Shown here: in pieces, positions 19,147 through 60,933 of the stretch
Position numbering within the stretch: the stretch's first letter is position 1
Layout: every line of letters begins with the position of its first letter
Assembly (NCBI RefSeq): GCF_024713945.1
Contig: NC_134679.1
Span: 3,539,001 to 3,603,000 of the forward strand
DNA length: 64,000 bases
Direction of reading: 5' to 3'
DNA from: Dermatophagoides farinae
Lineage: Eukaryota > Arthropoda > Arachnida > Sarcoptiformes > Pyroglyphidae
Made by a program: the position numbers and the translations under genes
Notes under the pieces: model-generated
The model's database searches: none
Seen by the model: only the letters and a program-made list of their open reading frames with translations
Told to the model about the DNA's origin: nothing

Positions 19147-22031
19147 ATGTTACCTCATCGGACGCCATTCACAATAATTATAGCCATTTTAGCTGCCGTT
19201 ATCATTGGTTCATCTGCCAATAGCCAAGATAATAGTCATCATCATAATAAAAATGACGAAATAGTGAGCTTCGAGTTGCCCACCGAAACCGAAACCGATA
19301 CTCATACTCATCATAATCAACAACAACGACAATCGCAAGTTCAACATCTGCATCATGAAATATCGCCACCGATCAAGCGACAAATTTCAAATAATCCTAA
19401 CTATCAATATTATAATCTTGAGCTGCCAAATACAAACACTACGAATTTTGTAAGTTATTAGCAAATTGTTGTCGAGATTTAATTTAATACAATTTCATTT
19501 TATCATTTTCATAGCAATTACCACCTGTTGAGGATCATTTTATCCATTATCATCAACCACAATCACAGCCTTCACGTGATCAAACACAGCCGCAACCTGT
19601 TCATCGTCATCATTCACTTTCTAATCATCATAATCAGCAGCCACAACAAGCGCAATATCATCAACCACAGCCACAATATATCCAACCACAATCACAATCG
19701 GCTAGCAACCAGGATCAATTCAATTCGATTCGTCGTTATCCACAGTTTCAACAAAATCAACCGCTAACAAATAATGAGCCATTGATTTCAGTCATAAGCG
19801 GTGCAAATCAATTTCATCCATCTCAATCGGTCTCATGGAATCCACCACCAACGCATTTTCCACCACCACCAATATCGCCACCTCAATCATCTTCATCATC
19901 TTCAGTTTTGAATTCAGCTCAAGCACCATCATCATTGCCCGATTCGATCAGTAATATTCCACAAAATTCTCCACAATCATCAATTGTATCATCATCACAA
20001 TCGAATGCCAATCAATTTAATGCTCAGCTGGTTGATTCTTCCAACAACCAACGAACAAATTCACGAAGTCAGTCTCAATCGTTTTCGCCATCAAAACCAA
20101 GTGAATCTTCAGTACAATCACAGCCCGCTTATCCATTCCAATATGAAGATTTGCAATCAAATGCAAATAAATCGAGAATAAATTTTCGACCGGGTAATCA
20201 TAATTTATTGGCCCCGATTTCCGAACCACCACCACCAGCACCAGATTCTACGCCAATACCAACTCGATCAACAGTTCCACCATCGTCAACACCAGCCATA
20301 GCCAATAAGACAGCTCCAACAAATAGTAGCGATAATAAAAAAGATGATGTCGTTATCTATTATTACTATTATTATGATGATGACAAAAATGCAAAAAATG
20401 ATCCGAACAATGAACTAGATGCTATTCCTTCTTTAGAAGGATTTGATGGTGGTGTTAATTCCCAATCACAACCACCGTCATCATCACATTCACAATCGAC
20501 TGTTGGTAATCCACCGGGTAAAATCCTTGTTAAACAACCGGCTGATTCTCATAAAATGATGACAGATCTACATTCTGGTGCCAACGTTAAACCACTTGAT
20601 ATATCGGCAATTTTAAATCCATCTACGTCAAATTCCGAACATAGAAAGCCAACTCAACCACAGCAGCAATCATCATCACAACCAATCACATCGACATCAG
20701 CTCAAATTCAACAACCGTCACAACCTTCTATTTTGCCACCAATAACTAATCATACGAGCCTTGTGTCAAACATTTTCCGATATGGAAATCAGCAACAATC
20801 ACAACCTGTAACAATATCTACTCCTCAAGCTCCATCTCAATTGCCATCACATTTTGAACCAGAAAAAATTCAACCACAGTTTATAGGTATCGAAAAATTA
20901 CCAGAACACGATCAACCTCGTATTTCTTCGCCTCAAATACCGGCCAGTACTGCAGTTCCAACCTTAACTTCACGAACATCAACTTTACAGCAATATTCAA
21001 CTACCACTTCCGCCCGACCACGATTCACGACTACCACAACAACAACAACAACAACAACTCCTACGCCAAGTACAACGGAAGCATCGACAACAACTGAATC
21101 ACCACGTAGACGTTTTGGTAATCGCCGACCTGGATTCGGGGCTCCAAACCGTTCTACTCCATCATATAGAAATCGGTTATCAACTACAACTACTACAACT
21201 ACAACCACTTCAGCACCACCACGAACATTTACACGAGCTCCGCCTGTTAGCTATAATAATCCAGCGGCCGTTAATCTTCGCCGTAATCGTCCATTATCTA
21301 ATAATCGATTCCGTCGTCCACAACGCCCGGGATTCGGTTCACCCATAAATGATGAACGCCATTCTGGAGATGACCAACAAGGTGATGGCAAAGAACAAAA
21401 TCCCTCTTCAACGTCTACAACAACTACAACAACAACAGCCGCACCACATCGCACAGCACAAGATCAATCATCACCTTCATCTAGACGTTTCGGTAATCGA
21501 GGGCGATATGGAGGACGAGGTAGTTATCAACCACAACCAAGTACTGGACGGCCGAGTACAGAAGCATCATCAAGTACGACTGATACTGCTACACAATCTA
21601 CCACAAGACGTCCAAGCGTTTATGCAAGCCGTAATCGACCCCAACTTCGTGGTGGTGGTGGTCGATTACCGTTCTTACGAAATCGAAATCGCAATCAACC
21701 TGAAGAACAATCAGCCATTTCATCTACAACGGAAACCACTGTGGCCGCTTCTGTTTCTGCAGCTTCAGACGACCAAGGAAATGCTGGTGGAAACGATGAA
21801 ACAGCAGCAGCAGCTGCTATAGAATCGGGTTCACAGCCAGCATCTGGAAATAGTGATTCTGATTTAGAATCACAACCTGCTTTAGGTGAATCATCTTTAT
21901 CATCAACCCCATCATCATCAACTGAACGGCCTAAAATCGGTGGTGGACGACAACGACCTGCATTGTTTGGAAATCGACCAAGGCCAAATCTATTTGGACG
22001 AAGAGCTCCAACGCCAGCTCAAAGTGCCTAA
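19147..22031 (+). CDS. Secreted mucin-like, Gln/Ser/Thr-rich protein with Arg/Gly blocks
   Basis: Two coding exons, 19147-19449 and 19515-22031, join in phase 0 across a 65 bp intron (donor GTAAGT, acceptor TTTTCATAG) and give about 939 residues. An acceptor at 19130 (CTACTTTAG) just before the ATG implies a 5' untranslated exon upstream. The N-terminus (MLPHRTPFTIIIAILAAVII, then GSSANS) is a good signal peptide. Then follow His/Gln-rich, Pro/Ser/Gln-rich and acidic regions, including DDVVIYYYYYYDDD at about residues 378-391. The last third alternates poly-Thr tracts with basic blocks such as RRRFGNRRPGFG, RRFGNRGRYGGRG and ALFGNRPRPNLFGRR. No folded domain or cysteine framework was found. 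Thr/Ser tracts fit O-glycosylation and the Tyr run could allow cross-linking; a cuticle, matrix or secretion role is inference. A neuropeptide-like precursor is less likely. Confidence 0.8.
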
Positions 22032-23651: not shown

Positions 23652-25677
23652 CTAATCATATTGAACACGTGTTGAATAAAGTACAGATCGACGAAAAGGT
23701 GTTGATGGTGGTGTGGATGTGCCAAAAGATTTTGTTTTCTCTGGTTGCCTAGATTTTTTTCCAGTATGCGTTTGTGATAATATAATCGAACCATTACCAT
23801 TGTGTTGAAGTGGCGAGGCAATTGAACAACGACTTAAAGAAAATTCACCGGCTCGGCGAACAAAACTGGATTCATCAAAACTGGTGCACAATGAAGTTAG
23901 CGAACGAATCGATTCGTTTGGTGTACGATCGTTTTTGTCTATATCAGTGTCTTCTAGTGGTATATGTGTCAAAATACCATTTGACCAACAAATAGTAATC
24001 AAACAACCAGGATCAACGTAATTGTCATGAAAATTCATCGATAGACATCGAACGTTTTTTCCAGAAGTGAATGCCGGTTTGAGAATACGAAATGGTTGAA
24101 TATTTAGGCCAGGATTTAAACTGGTGCTAAATATTGCTATTGTTTCCATAGGATCTAAAATAAACAAATGTTACAAAAATTCTCTTTATAAAACACAATA
24201 CCTTGAAATGAAACCACCAATTTGGTGCATTTAATATCCCAGCATAACTGGTGAATAATCGGTAGAGAAGTTATGCCATCCTGATTGAAAAATTGTCGTG
24301 TGTCAAGTATTAATGTACATTGATCACTGGAACCGCCACCAACGTCGTCGGCTTCGGCTCGATCATAAAATGTTAATGCAAAGATTTTGGATGATTGTTT
24401 AGGCACAAACAACATGATCATTCCGTTTGGTCGTAACCATACTGCAGTTTGACAGAGTTGTCGATTGTGTTCAGGGGGGAATGTCCAAAATTTGTAAGAC
24501 CATTTAATCGATTCGAATACACAAATTGGTTTAGAGCGTAGGGTTGTCAAAGCCAATAGCCGTCGTCCATCAGGTGACCATTGAAGTGAGGTCAGTTGAG
24601 GCAAATGAATCAATGATGAAAGTTGTTTCATTCGAATAGATTCGATTTTTGCCAATTGACATTTATCATCGAATCGACACAACGACAGTGAAGCATTACG
24701 GGGTGAACAACTGACCAACATATTGCCATTCATATTAAATGCTAAACTGGTAATTGGACTTTGTAGATGTGTATTCACGATTTGTAATGAAGGCTGCTGC
24801 CTGGTAGATAAAGATTCTGCTTTGACTTGAGCCAGTAAAGCTGGGGATGATTGAACAACATTCGTCGATAGGGATTCAAAACGCCAGATGAGTATCTTAT
24901 CACGACAAGCCACAACCAATACATTATCCAATTTGGGATGCCAACACATTGAGGATATTTGTCTTTGATGAACATTTTTCACGCATGTTATATGATTTAA
25001 TGGCCGTTTATGATCGGCCGAATATACATAAATAAGATCATTGACTAATGCCAATGCACATCGAAGCGAGCTAGGATGCCAGACAAACGTACGTACTAGA
25101 CCAGATTTCCACCCGGAATTCAAATTGAATTCATTTAATAGATCATCATCGGAATACTAATGATGGAACGAGGAGATATTAATAAATCACAACACAATTG
25201 TTATCGAAATTATAATTACCGTATCAAATGGATAGAAATACATATGAATTGCAAGATATATGGAATAAATTTGTAGGATGATTAAGGCAAATATGTACAA
25301 CAATAATAGGCCATAATTTTTGCTATTCGTTGGTTTGCCAGAATGATTGTCATCACTTTTTTGTTTTGATTGTCGATGATATTCATGATACGATTGTTTA
25401 ATAAAATTCAACATAGAGATGAATCCTTTTGTGCGATAATGACGCAATAGACGAACAAAAAGATTTTGATCATTTCGCTCAACAAATATATCACGACAAA
25501 GATGTTCGGGTGCCAATGCTGGTTTCACAATATCATCATTTTGTATTAAAATTCGAGGATATTTTTGTCCCTGTAATGAAAATGGTCATAAATGAACAAT
25601 AAAATTAATGTCATATTTACCATATGATTAATGAGATCAGAATCAACAAACGAATCATCAATCAGAATTTGTTCCAT
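23652..25677 (-). CDS. AAAS: Aladin, WD-repeat nucleoporin
   Basis: Four exons on the minus strand, 25677-25621, 25570-25220, 25156-24202 and 24154-23652, join in phases 0, 0 and 1 and give 621 residues (human aladin has 546). Introns are short (50, 63 and 47 bp). The ATG at 25677 (MEQILIDDSF) starts a complete frame. The conserved core begins near residue 150 with RTFVWHPSSLRCALAL and continues through ISSMCWHPKLDNVLVVAC, ILIWRFE, SLQWSPDGRRLLALT and ITICWSNGILTHIPL, which match the order of human aladin (VFAWHPH, VLAVAC-ILIW, NLLWSPDGSKILATT, SVGWSTGRIAHIPL). Aladin sits on the cytoplasmic side of the nuclear pore, anchored by NDC1. A hydrophobic stretch near residue 100 and a Ser/Thr/Pro-rich C-terminal tail are local features. 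The gene converges on the aquaporin. Confidence 0.9.
23675..23680 (+). terminator. Poly(A) signal for aquaporin, inside aladin last exon
   Basis: AATAAA lies 44 bp after the aquaporin stop, within the coding sequence of aladin on the opposite strand. Confidence 0.55.
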
Positions 25678-37370
<11,693 letters not shown>

Positions 37371-38498: not shown

Positions 38499-40733
38499 TC
38501 ATTCACAATTTTCAACTATTATTTGTTCAATCATTTCTTGATAAAAATGTTGAATTTGTTTTCGTTTCAATTTGAAACTTGCGGTAACTAAACCATTTTC
38601 AGCTGTCCATTCGTCTTGCACCAACAGATAATGTTTAGGAATTTCATAACGACGTAGACCATTCAGGCGAGCATGTATTATCATCTTTTTTCTGAATATT
38701 TGCAGTAGTTTTTGATTATTTAGATTCAAATTTTCACGTTCATTGTTTTGACATTTGTTGGCAATTTGTCTTGTCCAAATCCGTTCAATTGCTTTTTGAT
38801 TTGGAATAACAATAGCGATTAAATGATCACGCATAGAATCGGCAAGCACACAAATTTGATTGATCAAATACGAAGTCTTAAGTTTAGTTTCCACTTTACC
38901 AAGGGAAATATATTCGCCAAATTGAAGCTTAGTAAAATCCTTTTTCCTATCTATTATCTTGAACGAACCATTCGGGAACATTTCACCCACATCGCCTGTT
39001 CGAAACCATCGAATGCCTAGATGATCTTCATAATAGGCTTTACGATCCACATCTTTCAATTTGAAATAACCAATCGATAATGATTCACAGGACAAATGAA
39101 TTTCCCCACGAGGATTCGGTTTATCGGTTATTGTGTATCCACCTTCCGTCCAATCTACTAATTTGATTTTTGTACCAAATTGTGGTCCACCAACTTTTCC
39201 CAATGAGTAATCATGTGTATCCATGAACAAACCACCGCCAACAGTCTCGGTTGAGCCATAGCCTTGTATAAATATGATGTTCATGCAAGCTCGAATCAAT
39301 TTCTGAGTATCTGGGGCCAATGGAGCCCCTCCCGATAACATACCAATCAGATTGCCACCCAATAATTCGTTGAACTTACGAAGGAAAATGTGATCCAATA
39401 AAGGTGTCTGGAAGCCTTTTGCCATCCAGAAATATTTGTATTCAACAATGAATTCGAATAATTTAACAGCCAACAACCCACGTTGATTTAGTCTGGTCAA
39501 GATGGTTTTTCGTATTCTATCTAGAACCAAAGGAACACAGGCCATAACTGTAGGTCGCAACAATGTAGCATCACCTTTACAGCCAGGCATTAATGCTGCG
39601 CTCAAATCGGTTAATGTATGTGGACTTGAATAACCGATGCGAGCACCAAGTAAAATGACAAATGTTTCGACACCGAATTCGAGAATGTGAGCTAACGGTA
39701 GGTATGCAATATATACGTGACGGCATGTTTCGTGCAAGAAAAACTCGAGCAATCCGATACATCCTTTGAACAATCCTATGATGTTTCGCTGTGTCATTAA
39801 AACACCCTTGGGTCGGCCACCAGAACCAGAAGTGTACATAATGACTGCTAAATCATCCGGGTCATTTTTTGTAAAATTAAAATTTTTTTCACCAGCTTGG
39901 AGCATCTGTTCATAAGTGATGATTTGAACATCATTTTGATTATTATTGTTCAATTCCAAATTGAAACGTTCAATGTCCTTGTTACTTTCATATTGTCCTT
40001 CCTTTTGGTCTAAAACAATAAGATAACGCAATTGTTGAAAAATTTCACTTTTACGTGGATGTTCAATCAATTTTTTGAGAAGTTGGTTAGTGGTTACAAT
40101 GATTGTGGTTTCACATTCTTTAATTGCATCATAAACTCCTTGATTATCCAATGTCGGATATAATGTGGCAACAACAGAACCATTCTTGATAATGGCTTGA
40201 GCTGAAATGAACCATCGATAACTTGTTTCAGCATAAATGACGATTCTGTCTCCTTTTTGAGCTGAAAGCATTCGACGTAAGGCGCTACCGAATTGATTGA
40301 TAGAATCAATTAATGTTTTCCAAGTCATCCATTGATACTCGCCTAGTTTATATCGATACGGTATGTTTATATCATTTTGTTTGTTCGATTCACGCTGTAG
40401 AATAGGACGCCAAGCTAGGCATGAATGTTGAGGTCCGAAAATTTCATAACCTTTTTCGAATGCTTCATCCAATGTTTGACAATCGTCTAGGTAAAATTCA
40501 GGTAAATGTGTGCGCGTAGATTTTCGAACCAAATCATCTGGATAATCAACATCTTGAAGCGAACGATTTCGATAGATGAGATGCCATAGACGCCATGGCT
40601 TATGCCATAATAAATAGATGGGCAAAGTAATTATATCGAATACAACGGTCACTGTTGCAATACACAAAATAACAATTCGAATCACTTGTTGCGGTAAAAC
40701 TTTTTTCCATAAATATTGTAGCCGTTTCCACAT
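38499..40733 (-). CDS. Long-chain acyl-CoA synthetase, ACSL3/4-like, intronless
   Basis: One uninterrupted frame of 744 residues starts at ATG 40733 (MWKRLQYLWKK). Human ACSL3/4 have 711-720 residues. ACSL enzymes activate long-chain fatty acids to acyl-CoA with ATP at ER and lipid-droplet membranes. A membrane segment (about residues 19-43) precedes the AMP-binding domain. Motifs in order: GDRIVIYAETSYRW, the phosphate loop YTSGSGGRPKGV (residues 300-311), YLPLAHILEF, GYGSTET near residue 490, TGDVGEMFPNGSFKIIDRKK, and SLGKVETKLK. These follow the ACSL order. The phosphate loop has Gly305 where the family has Thr (TSGSTGxPKG), and GYGSTET has Ser for the usual Leu. The catalytic-side motifs after these are intact. 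Activity is therefore likely but not certain. Upstream of the ATG no splice-phase evidence for another coding exon was seen. Confidence 0.9.
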   Translation of the reverse strand: MWKRLQYLWKKVLPQQVIRIVILCIATVTVVFDIITLPIYLLWHKPWRLWHLIYRNRSLQDVDYPDDLVRKSTRTHLPEFYLDDCQTLDEAFEKGYEIFGPQHSCLAWRPILQRESNKQNDINIPYRYKLGEYQWMTWKTLIDSINQFGSALRRMLSAQKGDRIVIYAETSYRWFISAQAIIKNGSVVATLYPTLDNQGVYDAIKECETTIIVTTNQLLKKLIEHPRKSEIFQQLRYLIVLDQKEGQYESNKDIERFNLELNNNNQNDVQIITYEQMLQAGEKNFNFTKNDPDDLAVIMYTSGSGGRPKGVLMTQRNIIGLFKGCIGLLEFFLHETCRHVYIAYLPLAHILEFGVETFVILLGARIGYSSPHTLTDLSAALMPGCKGDATLLRPTVMACVPLVLDRIRKTILTRLNQRGLLAVKLFEFIVEYKYFWMAKGFQTPLLDHIFLRKFNELLGGNLIGMLSGGAPLAPDTQKLIRACMNIIFIQGYGSTETVGGGLFMDTHDYSLGKVGGPQFGTKIKLVDWTEGGYTITDKPNPRGEIHLSCESLSIGYFKLKDVDRKAYYEDHLGIRWFRTGDVGEMFPNGSFKIIDRKKDFTKLQFGEYISLGKVETKLKTSYLINQICVLADSMRDHLIAIVIPNQKAIERIWTRQIANKCQNNERENLNLNNQKLLQIFRKKMIIHARLNGLRRYEIPKHYLLVQDEWTAENGLVTASFKLKRKQIQHFYQEMIEQIIVENCE

Positions 40734-41799: not shown

Positions 41800-43523
41800 A
41801 TGGAAGTCTATAAATTTGTTCTTGTAATTCTTATAATTTGTTCATCAGTTCGAGCCGATAACATTCTTGATTTGATTGAAACACGGCCATCATTAGCAGC
41901 ATCTGATCAATCTATGATTTGTCAATTAAATGAAAATGACGTAAAATCATTGTTGACTTTGTCCGAACAATCTACAAACACTCAGAAATATATTTTGATC
42001 AAAACTGATGAAAACGAAGATTCTTTTATTAACAATGTTCGATCGCAATTATCCGGTTTGGATTATCGTGTTTGTTCATTCAAATTATCACAAGTTTCAC
42101 TTGCTCTAACTAACATAACAATTGTCAACAATGACGGACATGCCATACCTTATTATGGTCGCCGAGATCCCTCAACTTTGGTTCGTTTCCTTGCTCATTT
42201 GGAACAACGTATTTCCAAATCGCCATATCAAACGATTAAAGGCAAATTAGACAAGAAAGCCTATGAGCACGTGTTAGAGCCTAAAATTATCGCCTATTAT
42301 CCCGATGTTACAGCGCCTGCATTTGCACAATTTCAACAAGCTGCCAAACTAATGGCTCCTAGTCCTCCGTTTTTTGTCGTTCATGATCCACAGGTAAATA
42401 GTTTTCTGACATTGGCCAATTTGCCTTCAAATATTTACTTTCAATGTTATTTTTATTCTATACAATTATCTTTTAATAATGCTTATAGCTTGCAGCCAAA
42501 TTTCGACTCAATCAACCGGGACAAATGTCTCTAGTTCGTCGTTTAGAAAAATCGCAAATATTTTTCCCTCCACTATCATCGTCGGTGATGTCCTTGGAAC
42601 CAACACAGGCTATCATGGCTCAGGATATCATCAATTGGATACAAGAAAACCGTGGACTAGTAATGCATGAACTCAAAGATACCAATCTTTATAAGCCAGA
42701 GATTCATGACCCCAACAAATATCAATTGGTTGCAGTTGGTGATAAATCATCACCGCTTGGATTGTATTTCTTCAAGATTCTCACCAAAACAATACAAAAT
42801 ATAAGTCGTGAAAATGAAATCTGGTTAAATCCGTCGTCAATATCTGATGATAATGACGATGAACAGAATTCGGACATACAGAATCATATTCAATCGGATG
42901 AACCCGTTGATTTAATCCGTTTGGACGATATCAAAATTGTGTGGATCGATTTACAACAATTTCCTTCAACTGCATTGAACTTACAAAAATTGTATCAAAT
43001 AGAACCGGTTCAGAACGTTTGGTTTGGCCTCATTCATTCACCATCAACGGCTATTGCTACTCAAGGTCTGGATTCAGTATGGTTTGATTTGAATGGCTTG
43101 AATTTGACACGAAGTGATCGACGAACCGATCAGGAGAACATTTGGCTGGTTCGTAATTGGATTCTGACTGTTACTGACCGAGAAATGAAATCGGCTACCA
43201 ATGATTCATCAACCGGTGCTCCAATTACTTTTGTTCTAGAACCTGAACCGATTTCCGTACGACAAGGTGGTAATTTCCTGTTAGAATGTCGTGTTCTTCC
43301 TCATTTGAAATGTAGTTGGATGAAAGATTCCCAATCCATTGTAGTGGATTCCCGGTATCGATACGCTATTTCTGGTCGTGATGGTGGTGATTGTAGTCTG
43401 ATGATTCAGGGAGCTCGAATCGATGAAGATCAAGGAGAATGGACATGTTTGGTCGATGGTACAAATGAAAAATCTTTGCCCATCATAGTGAATGTTCGAT
43501 ACGATACGAAAACGGAATTCTGA
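41800..43523 (+). CDS. Secreted calsequestrin-like protein with C-terminal Ig domain
   Basis: Exons 41800-42393 and 42489-43523 join in phase 0 (donor CAG then GTAAAT; acceptor TGCTTATAG) and give 542 residues. MEVYKFVLVILIICSSVRA is a signal peptide. Residues from about 60 to 430 follow the calsequestrin triple-thioredoxin fold: FLAHLEQRI-YQTIKG, EPKIIAYYPD, AFAQFQQAAKLM, PPFFVVHD, INWIQENRGLVMHELK, DIKIVWIDLQQFPS and DSVWFDLNG correspond in order to FLLDLIEDPVELIEG, EIKLIGYFKSK, AFEDAAEEF, PFFATFD, VNFVEEHRR, IIWIDPDDFP and DSVWMEM of vertebrate calsequestrin. The usual acidic calcium-binding tail is absent. Instead residues 445-535 form an Ig domain: Cys465, Trp475 and Cys518 in DEDQGEWTC. 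No transmembrane segment or ER-retention signal follows. A luminal or extracellular binding role is inference; calcium storage is doubtful. Confidence 0.85.
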
Positions 43524-43618: not shown

Positions 43619-43624
43619 AATAAA
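43619..43624 (+). terminator. Poly(A) signal, calsequestrin-like gene
   Basis: AATAAA lies 96 bp after the stop at 43523, with a second AATAAA about 12 bp further on. Confidence 0.55.
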
Positions 43625-44526
43625 AGTTTAAATAAATTCTGAGTAATTATAAAAAAGTTATATACCGGGATCTACTTTTTGATTGTTTTACATCAATTTG
43701 ATAAATAACAAACTAATCAAGAAAATGTTTGGTTATGGCATTTATTTTAAAAAATATATAGCTAGATTAAAATTGAATTTTTAATATTCAAATTTTTTTT
43801 TTTTTGAAAATTAATCCTTTGAGAGAAATGAAACATTTCATAGAGCAACTTTTTTTTCTGATGATCGATAAGTTTCGTGGTTAATCAAAACAAACGGCAA
43901 ATGTAGCGATTTTTTTAAAATTACATACGTGACATCCATTCCCATAATCTGAGATTGTCTCACAGATTGTTCCTTGTTGGCCAATTACTTTGCCATAATT
44001 TGAAGATTGTTGCGATTTGATCTTAATATTTTTCAATATTCTTTTGTTTTTTTTTGTTTGTTTTTCATAATTTGTATTTTCATTTTTTCAAAAAAAAAAA
44101 TTAAATTTTTCTTTTTTCGTTTCAAATCCATATCCACCCATAATCATCATCATCATCAACAACAACCTTCCATAGAATTATTTGAACAGGCATTTTTTAT
44201 AGTTTTTCAGATTTTTGAGATTTGTGTGTGTGTGTTTTTTTTGCCAAAAAATTATTATCCATAAATTATATTATTTGAAAGTTTTCTGATAAAAATGAAA
44301 TCTATCATTAAAGGATCGTTTATTCACGATTTGGTTTCATTTTTTCCATGGAAAAGAATCGACCAATCAAGAAACACACGCATAAATACAGTAAATAATA
44401 AAACATCCAACTTAACCTATCCATTACGTACGACGCATGAATTCCAAAATATCATAACATTCCAGAATTAGTCTCCGCCTTCAAGATGGATCTCAAATTC
44501 GAATGGCAATATCAGATTGAAGATGA

Positions 44527-44626: not shown

Positions 44627-45289
44627 ATGTCAACGGAAAGTTTCTCGTTGACCTTATTGATGATGGCCTCTAGTATGATGATGGTAATCATTTGTGCTTC
44701 ATCATCTCCATCATCTTCATCATCAATAGGCGAAGATATTGAACAGCAACAGCCCCAATTAGCTGGCCAACAATGTGCACCAAGCGATATTCAATGCAAT
44801 GAAGTCTCTAATCCATCAACGATGATGATGACACAAAGATCAAATCCGTCATCTATTCAATTAGTCGAACCATCTATTTTTTCAATGCCATCGTCACTAT
44901 CTTTGAGCCAGAATCCGGCTTCAGCACTTTTAGTTCCAACAACAAACATAGGATCTAATAACTTTGGCGATGGTGAACAACAATCGCAACAACAATCATC
45001 AATGAGAATTCAGGAACCAATCGATTTAGATTGGCTTATGAATCGAATACCACAACAACCACACCAAACATCATTTTTATTGTCAGGTTCATCACCGATT
45101 ACTGCACCAAAATTGATTCGAGCATTCATTGTGAGCAATGGCAAAGGTGACGGAAGTAGTTCAATCTCGTCATCATTATCATCATCTCAATCAGTGGATC
45201 GTCGTGTGGCCCGTACACCACTTTTGAATATGGCCAATCGTTTTGGTAAACGTGATAAGCTACGTATGTCAAATCGTTTCGGTCGATAA
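44627..45289 (+). CDS. Putative amidated neuropeptide precursor (two NRF-amide peptides)
   Basis: A single exon encodes 220 residues, with no splice site needed. The N-terminus (LTLLMMASSMMMVIICASS) is a signal peptide. Most of the chain is Ser/Gln-rich spacer with one close cysteine pair (CAPSDIQC). The C-terminus reads VDRR, VARTPLLNMANRF, GKR, DKLRMSNRF, GR, stop. Each copy thus has a dibasic or basic border and a Gly amide donor, which predicts two peptides ending in Met-(Ala/Ser)-Asn-Arg-Phe-amide, at residues 194-206 and 210-218. A dibasic site followed by Gly-Lys-Arg is standard for neuropeptide processing. The C-terminal sequence does not match the known arthropod families I can recall (FMRFa, sNPF, NPF, sulfakinin, myosuppressin, SIFa, RYa). 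A divergent RYamide/luqin-type or other RFamide precursor is the nearest guess. Confidence 0.72.
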   Translation: MSTESFSLTLLMMASSMMMVIICASSSPSSSSSIGEDIEQQQPQLAGQQCAPSDIQCNEVSNPSTMMMTQRSNPSSIQLVEPSIFSMPSSLSLSQNPASALLVPTTNIGSNNFGDGEQQSQQQSSMRIQEPIDLDWLMNRIPQQPHQTSFLLSGSSPITAPKLIRAFIVSNGKGDGSSSISSSLSSSQSVDRRVARTPLLNMANRFGKRDKLRMSNRFGR

Positions 45290-45783: not shown

Positions 45784-46601
45784 TCAATCCTGCTTTATCG
45801 GTTGTTTAGATGAACCAATAATCTTTTTTCGTTGCCCAAACATGTAAAGATAAAGCTGGGGAAAAACTAAAAAAAGAAAATAAACAAATGGACTATATGG
45901 TTTCAAATGGCAATACTTACAATGAATGTAGCTAAGCATGAATATTATGCAATACACATCATAATGGAATGAGAAATTTAATTTGTTTGGTAAATCGAAC
46001 GAGAGAAATTTTTGTTGGCGAATCGGTCGAAGAGCAGCGTAAGTGGTAAATAGTTCACCAGAAACTCCAATTGGATATAGTACAATAAATAGAGTATAAC
46101 GAAGCCAGGTACAAATGTACGGAACGGCATCATAAATGTTTAAGGCATAGTAAGCATATCGTGTACATTCGGCGATACACCAGGCGATCAATAACATCGG
46201 TACACCGATCGAATATCGAGCTTCGGACAACGGAATTAATATTCCCCAAACCAACATTAAACGAGAGAAAATTTGGGTAAATGTTGTGAACGGATTTGAT
46301 CGAACAAAACCAATCATGGCATGGAATACTTCAATTAATTGATAAGTTTGAAAAATAGTTATAATAATGGAACAATGTTCCCATAGTAGTCGATAATTAT
46401 GACGTTCAGGCGAAAACAATAAGAACCGTATGGTCAGAAATAATCCATAAGCCCATCTATGAGAATAAAGTTCGATGAATTAGCTAATCAATATTTGAAA
46501 ATAATAACAAACCCAATAAATTGTACAGCATTATAAATGGCCAAATAATGTTTGACCATTGGTGGTGATTGCTGTCGAGTTTGAGATTTTTTAGTTTCCA
46601 T
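45784..46601 (-). CDS. Very-long-chain 3-hydroxyacyl-CoA dehydratase (HACD/PTPLA family)
   Basis: Three minus-strand exons, 46601-46513, 46456-45921 and 45866-45784, join in phases 2 and 1 and give 235 residues (human HACD2 has 254). Introns are 56 and 54 bp. The enzyme removes water from 3-hydroxyacyl-CoA, the third step of very-long-chain fatty acid elongation at the ER. The multi-pass chain contains FQTYQLIEVFHAMIGFV, TQIFSRLMLVW, AECTRYAYYALN, RYTLFIVLYPIGVSGEL and FPQLYLYMFGQRKK, the family motifs in order. The catalytic pair corresponds to Tyr157 and Glu164, seven residues apart as in yeast Phs1. The C-terminus KQPIKQD lacks a clear KKxx signal. Its 54 bp second intron has no in-frame stop and would add 18 residues if retained. 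Confidence 0.92.
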
Positions 46602-56700: not shown

Positions 56701-59700
56701 AAAACAGGAAAAAAATTGCATTGCCATGCAATGGGGAAGATACCAGGGATAGGCTCGATGGTTCAATGATTGTCCTGTCTTTTTTTCTCGGTATTCTTTG
56801 GCTTGTATCATACCGATCTACTGTATGTAGTGTTTTTTTTGTGTGACACATTCGATTTATAACGTCCGCCCATTTCACCGATGGAATGATGATGATGTTA
56901 TTGGCCAAATAAATTTTAAGGGGATATTTTACATTTTTACGATTGTTTCAGCATTTCGGAAATATAAGTAACAAGCTTAGCCGTGCGTGTAAAGAGAGAG
57001 AGTCGAGTATAGAGTTCAGTGATCATTAGTCGAGCATCATCATCATCATCATTTTGAGATTTTCCCATTGTTTTGCATGATGATAACGAAAGTCGTTTCC
57101 TATTCTCGTCGTGCATGTCACATCATCATTATCATGATTATGTGGTGACTATCACTTGGAATTTAGCCATTGGGCATTAAAACGACAATCGGATGCCATT
57201 CTCATCATCGGAATCGATTATTTAATCATTATGATATTGACTGCCATTAGCAACCAGTAACCTCATTATTATCATCATCATTTTAACCATCGAATTTTTA
57301 TGTAACCAATACTCAACAGGTCATCCGTTTCGATGATGCTTAGTTGTGAATTTCGCGCCAAAACTTAGAAAAAGAAAAAGTCAAATTGTCATTCTGATAC
57401 TCTTTTTTTTAGTGTAAATGTTAGCATTAAAGTTGATTCTATCGAATTCCACATGTGTCCTATAGTGTTTGTTTTTTATATGATTGTTTCGATTCAGTAT
57501 TAAGAATTCATTTTTATTCTTATGAGCAATAATAAATTGCCTTTTCTCTTTTTTTGAGATTATTTATCATCAATCATCGATGTGATATGTGCAACACGCA
57601 ACAATGACGACAATATCCAAAGTTGCAGTTGATGAGTGTGTGCTCGCTTTGTATTCAATAATAATAAAACCATGGATAAAAGTTTGACTGAAGGTGGTGG
57701 TGGTGGTGGTTATACTGTTTTAGGAGCTCTTTCATTAGTAACTGTTATGTTTCTGTGTATTTAATTCAGTTTTTTTTGCCTCATGAATCGCCGAACGAAA
57801 TCAATATCTTTGTTTTTCAAATGTTGGATCATTTGATTTACAATGCCGCATGTTGTTTTAAAGGTCATTATTATTTTTGCTTGATGTTTGTGTGTATGTG
57901 TGTGATTTATTGATGTCTTTGATTATGATTCATCTAATCATCAATTCTTTTCATTGTTTTATTTGTACTTTGTAGGTGAAAAGAAGATTAGATTGGGATT
58001 CACCCCCCACATCTGCATCGCCACCCGAATCATCCAATGCAATCAATGGTAATCCTGTAGCAACAACTACGACAATTACAGTGGCCAAAACAACAATGAC
58101 AGCAGTAAATGGAAAACCCGTCAGTGTTCGTACGTTTAAATTGTCGAATGCAATGAAACAAAGCCTGGTGGCATCCGGCTGTTCGAAAGCTGTTGCCGTT
58201 GCTGCTGTAGCTGCTGCTTTTCATACAAATGCAAATGGTGGTAGTGCTAATCAACAACAATCACAGCATCATTCACCCGATCGATTAATATCGGCAACAG
58301 CTGCTGGTTGTGGTTCTGACACCGGTATTTGTCCCGTTACAGCAGCAATCACACCTGCCATCGTTGGTGGTTCGTCATCCGTTGTGGCCCCGACAGCTGT
58401 ACAGTTTGTAGCTAACATTTCCGAACTATCGCAAGCATCACCAACCATTGCCATTGTGAATCCAAACAATACACCACTTGTACAGCTTGGTGGCCATCAA
58501 ACAGCTACCGCTACGGATTCTGTACAGGCCCAAAACGGAATATTCAAAACACCATTAGCACCAAACAAATCGATTACGGCTCTTACTCCTTCTTCCTCTG
58601 CTCCGTCTTCATCCAATGGTCATTCACAGTCTCAGCAAAATTCTGTTCATCGTTTTTACATTGTAAACAATGATGGTATGACTGGCGGTGAGTCCGACAT
58701 GAAAACTCATTGTTTAAATATCAAATCAAAAAATTCAACTTCAAAAATTCAATTGACGCCAATATTGGCAAATTCAGTAGTCAAACAACAACAGTCATCA
58801 GAGAATCAGCGATCAAACAAACGTGCTCGAACCACAACACCATTAGTGAAAAAAGAAGAATCTAATTTTGAAGATTCTGCGACCAATAGCAATTTGCCAC
58901 GTGTAAACTATATTCGTATACGGCCTTCAAATGGGTCAATGAATGGCACCAATAATGGAAAATCTAATGGTGCCATTCGAACTATATCGAATTCTTCGGA
59001 ATCTTCATTGCCATATTCACAATCTAAAGATTTTTCTTCATCTCCAATTGTAATGAATGAAGATGGTGATGATTGTGGGTCGAATGGTGGAGATTTGTTT
59101 ATTAATACATCCTCAGGATCCACTAACGGATATTATGGCAATGGTGGTTTGCCAAGTACGTCATCTTTATCATCTTCATATCCATATAGTCCATCGTCAT
59201 CATCATCAAGTGATTTTGCCACCACCACCACCTCTCATCATCAACAACATACAAATACATCTAATTCAACTGGTCGTAAATCTGGACGTACACGCTATGA
59301 AACTTCATTAGGTCAATTGACCCGTAAATTTATCTCATTATTGGAAGATTCGTCAGACGGTTCGATCAATTTGAACGATGCTTCCCAAGTCCTACAAGTA
59401 CAAAAACGTCGAATCTATGATATAACAAATGTGCTTGAAGGCGTTGGCCTATTGCACAAAACATCCAAAAATAATATTCAATGGCGAGGCGGTATTATCG
59501 ATTATTTTTCGGGTCGTAATCCGGCTGATTTTAGTGATCAAACCTCCCATTATCGCAATCGTAGGCCACCGCCTTTATCGTTATTATTCAATGAAAATAG
59601 CAATGATTCTAATAGTGGTGGTGGTTTTCATAATGGTTGTTCATCGTCTTCCCAATCATCATCGATTGATCACAGATTAAGTGAACTCGAAAACGATGAA

Positions 59701-60933
59701 AATCGTTTAGATCATCTTTTAAGTGTTGCTCTCGAAAATCTCAATACAGTTAAGCGTAGTCCCTATCTTTATGCGAGCTATAAAGATTTACGTCGAGTTC
59801 CCCAATTCCACGATCAAACTGTGATAGGAATTCGTCCGCCTCCCGATACCGAACTTCAAATTTCTGATCCTTCAGAGGTAATCGTTTATAATTCTAATCG
59901 ATAAATTCGTTTCTTAACAACCCACTTTATGTGTATTTGTATTTTGCTTATATATAGGGCTTACAAATTCGGTTAAGAAATTCTCGATGTCAAATGATCG
60001 AAGTCTATCTTTGTCCGCCTACTAATGATGATGAAACCAGTATTGTCGACCCGACAATGGCCAATTATGAGTTCCAATCATCACATCTCGACGAACCATT
60101 GCAGACAGTGCCTACGCTGGCCAGACGTTCCTCTTCCTCTCCCACAGTCAACGAAATCATTCCGATTGATTCCGAGGAATTAGTTACTGAGACAGCTACT
60201 AGCCAAGCAGCTTGTCATTCAGATATTCAAAGTCATGCGAATACCGAATCTGGTTATCATTCATATTACGGTAGTGGTTCAATTCAGACTCCTGTACGGA
60301 CAACGATGGCCAACCCTAATAAAATGATAAACACTATGGGCAATGGAAGTATCCCTAAAAGTCATCAGTCACAACAACACGTAATTCAATCGCCTACTAA
60401 ATGTTCTTCAGTATACAACGTCAATGATAGCCCGATTATTGTCAAAAGTGAGTTAATAGATTTTATAATTGTTATTAGATAAAAATTATAATTTTTTTTC
60501 CAAAATAATAGGCGAACCATCATCTTGCCATGATAGTTACGCACATGCATTCATTTGTCATGATGATGAATTTGGTCCATTAGGATCTCGGACTTATATG
60601 ACACAGACTGAAGATCAAATAACATTAAAGTCTTCCTCATCGTCGCCGATATCAAGGCAGAACGAACAAAGTGGCAACAGTTCTGCAACGCCAAATAATC
60701 ATGATCATAGCTCTAATAATAATAATAATAATAATAATCAAACTCATCGATCCAGTCATCATCATAGCCAATATCATCATTCACCATTATCACATTGTCA
60801 TTCATCACCCATAGCAATGATTCCATTAGAGCCACCTGTAACAACCGATACCGATGATTATAATTTTACCCTTTGTGACAATGAAGGCATCGCTGAACTA
60901 TTTGATGATAATGATTTTTCTCTAGACATTTAA
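53738..60933 (+). CDS. E2F: E2F transcription factor, E2F1-3 type
   Basis: Four exons, 53738-54511, 57976-59877, 59958-60447 and 60512-60933, join in phases 0, 0 and 1 and give about 1195 residues. E2F binds DNA with a DP partner and is held in check by retinoblastoma protein. Exon 1 encodes a low-complexity extension with an acidic patch. Exon 2 opens with VKRRLDW (residues 259-265), the cyclin A-binding motif. The DNA-binding domain spans about 696-765 ([36 protein letters not shown]). The leucine-rich and marked-box region is about 825-912 ([16 protein letters not shown], then EVYLCPP). The last residues ([18 protein letters not shown]) match the Rb-binding transactivation motif. The protein is about twice the size of vertebrate E2F1-3, mostly through Ser/Gln/Asn-rich inserts. 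The 3.5 kb first coding intron carries four E2F-type sites. Confidence 0.92.
55113..55125 (+). promoter_or_regulatory. E2F-type binding site 1
   Basis: TTTGGCGGGTAAA matches the E2F consensus TTTGGCGGGAAA with one change (A to T at position 10). It lies in the E2F gene's own intron. Confidence 0.5.
55622..55641. repeat. Perfect 7 bp hairpin
   Basis: TATGTCA and TGACATA are exact reverse complements around a six-base loop TCGTGG. It sits in the E2F intron next to repeated TAAGAC words. Confidence 0.55.
56097..56108 (-). promoter_or_regulatory. E2F-type binding site 2
   Basis: TTTCCCGCCAAA is the exact reverse complement of the E2F consensus TTTGGCGGGAAA. Confidence 0.6.
56687..56704. promoter_or_regulatory. 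E2F-type binding site 3, perfect palindrome
   Basis: TTTTTTGGCGCCAAAAAA is an 18 bp perfect palindrome with TTTGGCGC on both strands, the E2F core TTTSGCGC. Confidence 0.6.
57351..57363. promoter_or_regulatory. E2F-type binding site 4
   Basis: TTTCGCGCCAAAA contains TTTCGCGC on the plus strand and TTTGGCGC on the minus strand, both strong E2F cores. It is 613 bp before exon 2. Confidence 0.65.

Follow-up and report, generated by a model that had tools for sequence, protein, structure and literature searches.

A divergent calsequestrin-related protein with a C-terminal immunoglobulin domain in the mite Dermatophagoides farinae

Calcium-driven retention of calsequestrin in the reticulum relies on the acidic surface of the protein, which in vertebrates has no KDEL signal. 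The Asp/Glu tail marks the calcium-storing members and not the whole family, since calsequestrins from before the gene duplication are described as having a C-terminal domain poor in acidic residues (PMC7582152). The same work, a phylogenetic paper from 2020, reports that calsequestrin was not found in insects and that a homologue occurs in a spider, and its discussion states that the Arthropoda lack a calsequestrin gene (PMC7582152). Acarine genes named ‘calsequestrin-2-like’ have been listed twice: as predictions in the scabies mite, for which the authors assume a role in muscle and where the word ‘immunoglobulin’ is absent from the main text (PMC4930577), and as a cattle tick transcript among the hemocyte genes downregulated only with Babesia bovis (PMC11789329). 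The tick transcript hints, mildly, at expression of an acarine relative outside muscle. Both may be orthologues of the gene described here, the likeness being one of name, as these accounts give no domain layout. In the available account of Brugia, ‘calsequestrin’ and ‘I-set’ are separate proteins (PMC4569401). Among the matches listed from the open-access literature, judged by titles and the starts of abstracts, there was no description of a protein combining calsequestrin with an immunoglobulin (Ig) domain; such a layout may be present, without comment, in mite proteomes that are already annotated.

The mite gene lies on the plus strand at 41800-42393 and 42489-43523 of the window (the whole 64-kb stretch of DNA that was analysed), with the ATG at 41800 and the stop codon ending at 43523; translation of the two exons gives a product of 542 residues. 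Exon 1 (41800..42393, +, 198 codons) encodes a signal peptide-like start, a divergent first domain and the beginning of the second calsequestrin domain, and exon 2 (42489..43523, +, 344 codons and stop) carries the remaining calsequestrin part and the entire Ig domain in a single open frame. The single intron at 42394-42488 (+; 95 bp, phase 0, GTAAAT..TTATAG) is as the first-pass annotation had placed it. The GC content of the exons (0.36 and 0.40) is higher than that of the intron (0.23) and of the 500 bp flanks (0.29 and 0.25), and by codon position it is 0.48/0.34/0.26 in exon 1, a pattern common to both exons. Two AATAAA polyadenylation-type signals follow at 43619 and 43631 (43619..43636, +), about 100 bp downstream of the stop. 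The exon junction is supported by the similarity to calsequestrin, which phmmer extends over it without a gap: FFVVHDPQ, followed across the junction by LAAKF, is aligned with FFATFDSKVAKKL.

The genome that holds the window contains a group 2 mite allergen gene that agrees with PDB 1ahk (Der f 2) at 119 of the 120 residues compared; its score is 269.5 bits with Der f 2 and 245.6 bits with the best Der p 2 chain, as fits D. farinae (Chelicerata, Acariformes, Astigmata) or a very near relative. In six frames, the window contains nine stop-free runs of at least 300 codons. Seven of these, including the present gene, were scanned with Pfam (all except 19515-22028 and 36459-37367), and all seven contain Pfam domains. 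The neighbours identified by Pfam are an AMP-binding enzyme (38499-40733, -), a PTPLA protein (45784-46419, -), E2F (57976-59904, +) and an Aladin-like propeller (24155-25123, -), the last with 135.1 bits, below the model cut-off of 171.1. Pfam also places leucine-rich repeats followed by PDZ domains in successive open reading frames at 31428-36141 (+), in one or several genes; this layout is presumably that of a Scribble-type polarity gene. An open reading frame of 220 residues at 44627-45289 (+) has a signal peptide-like start and the C-terminus MANRFGKRDKLRMSNRFGR; by eye it resembles the precursor of a neuropeptide from which two NRF-amide peptides would be released, and searches of Pfam (E up to 0.001) and NCBIfam (E up to 1) matched nothing in it.

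The mite protein shares with vertebrate CASQ1 and CASQ2 a likely signal peptide, the absence of a CXXC motif and the blocks of domains 2 and 3 in the same order. Over residues 109-435, 70 of 257 aligned residues are identical to CASQ1. The vertebrate proteins differ in having an acidic tail, about twice the acidic content and a recognisable first domain, and in having neither the inserts in domain 3 nor an Ig domain.

The likely signal peptide (residues 1-19; 41800..41856, +) was assigned by hydropathy, with the cleavage site placed by eye and not by a signal-peptide program. Of all 19-residue windows in the protein, the three with the highest hydrophobicity begin at residues 6-8; the best mean hydropathy is 1.78 at this start versus 1.34 beyond residue 30, and in the whole chain after residue 30 hydropathy reveals no later segment resembling a membrane span. 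The signal peptide proposed earlier corresponds to this signal peptide-like start. Four N-glycosylation sequons are found, at residues 105, 302, 403 and 436. The C-terminal residues after the Ig domain are RYDTKTEF, and a KDEL-type end is lacking.

The region expected to form the first thioredoxin-like domain (residues 20-112; 41857..42135, +) has no recognisable similarity. Against calsequestrin domain 1 it scores as shuffled sequences do (z 0.1 and 0.3 in global, -1.4 and -0.7 in local alignment), and a Pfam search with residues 20-142 gave no match at E up to 10. The best similarity to calsequestrin is found in residues 113-316 (42136..42842, +, spanning the intron), which correspond to domain 2 and the first part of domain 3. 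Here Pfam Calsequestrin (PF01216) matches residues 113-312 with E 2e-10 and 40.6 bits, above its cut-off of 27, and calsequestrin-1 from the PDB matches residues 109-316 with E 5.6e-12. The search of PDB sequences at E up to 1 gave 33 matches, the top 11 being calsequestrins (E 5.6e-12 to 1e-6) and the other 22 being matches to the Ig domain. Domain 2 far exceeds its shuffles (z 18.2 and 19.7), and the whole domain 3 region, residues 251-435, reaches z 8.0 and 8.6.

The second half of domain 3 (residues 340-435; 42912..43199, +), which contains the segments VWIDLQQFP (349-357) and DSVWFDL (393-399), was assigned by the shuffle test: against CASQ1 and CASQ2 it gives z 5.1 to 6.2, with 0 or 1 of 500 shuffles scoring as high. 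As a control, the same residues were compared with calsequestrin domain 1, giving z 4.2 in local and 1.9 in global alignment; the signal may thus in part be a general thioredoxin-type similarity or one of composition. Residues 338-441 alone have no Pfam match, while residues 238-441 reach 21.3 bits with the calsequestrin model, below the cut-off of 27, the best stretch spanning only the first third. By these measures, similarity to calsequestrin is weaker in the second half of domain 3 than in its first half. The alignments of domain 3 disagree in register, IWIDPDDF of CASQ1 being paired with IWLNPSSI (309-316) by phmmer and with VWIDLQQF (349-356) by MAFFT. Relative to vertebrate calsequestrin, domain 3 contains an acidic-rich insert at about residues 317-345 (42843..42929, +), the edges of which depend on the alignment. 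The first-pass annotation had the protein following vertebrate calsequestrin block by block; this holds from about residue 109, firmly to about residue 316, and does not hold for residues 20-112, which are shuffle-like and have no Pfam match.

The Ig domain is matched by Pfam I-set (PF07679) over residues 445-521 (43227..43457, +) with E 4e-7 and 30.6 bits, above the cut-off of 23.7. The domain features Cys465 and Cys518 with Trp475, as had been claimed, and an additional pair, Cys473 and Cys500; judged by the spacing to Trp475 and to a leucine of strand E, these two would face the core, where a second bridge between them could form. I-set domains of titin, obscurin, DCC, LAR and Roundabout, which are among the best PDB matches, share the Cys/Trp/Cys core. 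Those domains occur in multi-Ig proteins, whereas the Ig domain of the mite protein is single, C-terminal and carries the extra cysteine pair. The best match to it in the same genome beyond the gene itself has E 0.016, which is too weak to name a donor gene.

The acidic character of calsequestrin is largely absent from the mite protein. Acidic residues make up 12.3% of residues 20-435, compared with 23.0% of tail-less human CASQ2, and the net charges are -11 and -42, respectively. In one MAFFT alignment, over residues 109-435, the mite protein keeps 20 of the 74 acidic residues of CASQ1 and 16 of the 64 of CASQ2; the other 54 CASQ1 positions are non-acidic, and Lys or Arg now stands at 12 (CASQ1) or 9 (CASQ2) of the former acids. 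Hydrophobic positions are kept at 80 of 106 (CASQ1) and 83 of 111 (CASQ2) in the same single alignment and region. Over the whole alignment, the mite protein keeps 25 of 97 CASQ1 acids, as compared with 76 of 99 for CASQ2. In these comparisons the core is better kept than the acidic surface. Two earlier statements agree with these counts and with the domain layout, namely that most acidic pairs of the aligned blocks are replaced and that the acidic tail is gone, with an Ig domain in its place on one chain.

The further proposal that the protein has left the calcium-storage role is supported in part, by the few acids kept. The missing tail by itself does not show that a luminal role has been lost, because pre-duplication calsequestrins are likewise described as poor in C-terminal acids (PMC7582152). 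The poorer conservation of the acidic surface relative to the core argues against bulk calcium storage; modest binding is still possible, and the remaining acids together with the acidic insert of domain 3 could still bind calcium.

Most likely, the protein is the mite's own altered calsequestrin, which may now serve as a binding protein of the secretory pathway. The chain would enter this pathway and be glycosylated, and would form a non-enzymatic scaffold of thioredoxin type. It would no longer condense with calcium as a bulk store, since it lacks the tail and has a minority of the acids left. Specific contact with a partner would fall to the Ig domain, which would have the usual disulfide and perhaps also a Cys473-Cys500 bridge. 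Export as a soluble binding protein of the hemolymph or matrix is slightly favoured over residence in the reticulum, as little remains of the acidic surface for calcium-driven retention; the missing KDEL signal is no argument for export, as vertebrate calsequestrin lacks it too. We give the proposal as a whole, comprising a divergent calsequestrin, loss of bulk storage, partner binding through the Ig domain and favoured export, a probability of about 0.5. Of the original interpretation, the combination of a calsequestrin-related part and an Ig domain in one chain is thereby retained, and the secreted or luminal binding role is one that the sequence suggests.

There is a considerable chance, short of even, that mites still use the protein as their muscle calsequestrin, in the form of a reticulum-resident buffer of lower capacity, with the Ig domain replacing the acidic tail as an anchor to the release-channel complex. 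The state of the genome is relevant here. All 62.4 Mb (22 contigs) were searched in six frames, exon by exon, with the best candidates being scored. PF01216 gave two matches, both to genes of protein disulfide isomerase (PDI) type, and missed the calsequestrin-Ig gene itself. The calsequestrin-Ig protein as query found its own two exons and two further matches with E 0.3 and 0.8. Human CASQ2 found the two PDI-type genes (E 1.8e-7 and 2.7e-4), the calsequestrin-Ig gene twice, once per exon (E 0.25 and 0.63), and one more match with E 1.4. With these three queries, which can miss genes, neither a second copy nor a canonical calsequestrin was found. Absence of another calsequestrin is not proven, as the exon-by-exon PF01216 search missed the present gene; a better-conserved calsequestrin should score higher, given that CASQ2 reached this one. 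Among 2 pattern matches in viral contigs and 17 in genome contigs, no relative was confirmed, as was to be expected of collections that are not of animal genomes. The mite genome contains RyR domains and calreticulin-type genes. A continuing role in muscle would thus fit a gene that is the sole calsequestrin-like one detected, in a genome with RyR domains; it would also fit the few C-terminal acids described for pre-duplication calsequestrins (PMC7582152) and the muscle role that the authors assume for the scabies mite ‘calsequestrin-2-like’ predictions (PMC4930577). Against this role, acids are replaced all along the aligned region, including the 54 non-acidic and 12 Lys or Arg positions mentioned above, and PF05279 (junctin/triadin type) was not found in the genome, in a search that had no positive control.

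It is improbable that the protein is a divergent member of the PDI family to which calsequestrin is merely the nearest thioredoxin-type profile. The two PDI-type genes of the same genome, L001 (G000:C2:4109866-4110552) and L002 (C7:3634378-3634746), also exceed the PF01216 cut-off, so that passing it is weak evidence alone. More generally, as the case of L001 and L002 illustrates, a PF01216 match by itself should not be taken as calsequestrin. These two genes share thioredoxin-type domains with the calsequestrin-Ig protein; they differ in having Pfam Thioredoxin (PF00085) as best match and CGHC or CVHC sites, and in matching the calsequestrin-Ig protein far more weakly than calsequestrin does. 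Queried with residues 20-440, CASQ1 gives 48.8 bits and CASQ2 gives 32.9, and the top-scoring frame from the two PDI-type loci gives 7.7, which puts CASQ1 41 bits above that frame. CASQ2 in turn matches the PDI-type frames with 35.7 and 27.2 bits, the former being similar to the 32.9 bits between the mite protein and CASQ2, and the mite protein has a weak match to a PDI subfamily model (21.3 bits versus a cut-off of 344); both observations are what a PDI relative could produce. In the genome search as well, CASQ2 matched L001 and L002 better than it matched either exon of the calsequestrin-Ig gene, which makes the link to calsequestrin a distant one. On the other hand, a CXXC motif is absent from the entire protein, Pfam Thioredoxin (PF00085) gives no match at E up to 1, the 33 PDB matches under the same E limit include no PDI, and domain 3 has the DSVW and VWID motifs, as in calsequestrin. 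Judged by these scores, the mite protein is a remote calsequestrin, at roughly the same distance from CASQ2 as PDI; it is grouped with calsequestrin because it resembles the CASQ proteins, and PDI hardly at all.

The aligned calsequestrin part ends at residues 421-435, and 27 to 69 bp in the same frame separate it from the start of the I-set match at residue 445. As first described, the Ig domain therefore lies in one exon with the end of the calsequestrin part, in an uninterrupted frame of 344 codons. The donor patterns searched for in exon 2 occur once, at 43488, where the Ig part is nearly complete, and not at all in the stretch between the calsequestrin part and the Ig domain; the fusion is thus independent of splice choice. 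Two adjoining genes, or an error of assembly or gene model, might be suspected from the unrecognisable residues 20-112 and from a model built on sequence alone, but this is hardly credible given the common exon frame of domain 3 and Ig domain, the single donor match lying outside the junction between them and the gapless similarity over the sole intron. By all these signs this is a real gene and a real fusion.

A mite gene with calsequestrin-type domains, few acids and an added Ig domain would represent an intermediate or an alternative fate of calsequestrin. It is conceivable, if rather unlikely, that in acariform mites, and perhaps in arachnids at large, the sole calsequestrin gene has turned into an Ig-bearing, exported protein of adhesion or recognition, leaving striated muscle without calsequestrin. 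How arthropod muscle copes without a canonical calsequestrin becomes testable with this gene. If exported, the product would also be a secreted protein, as yet uncharacterised, of a mite that causes allergy.
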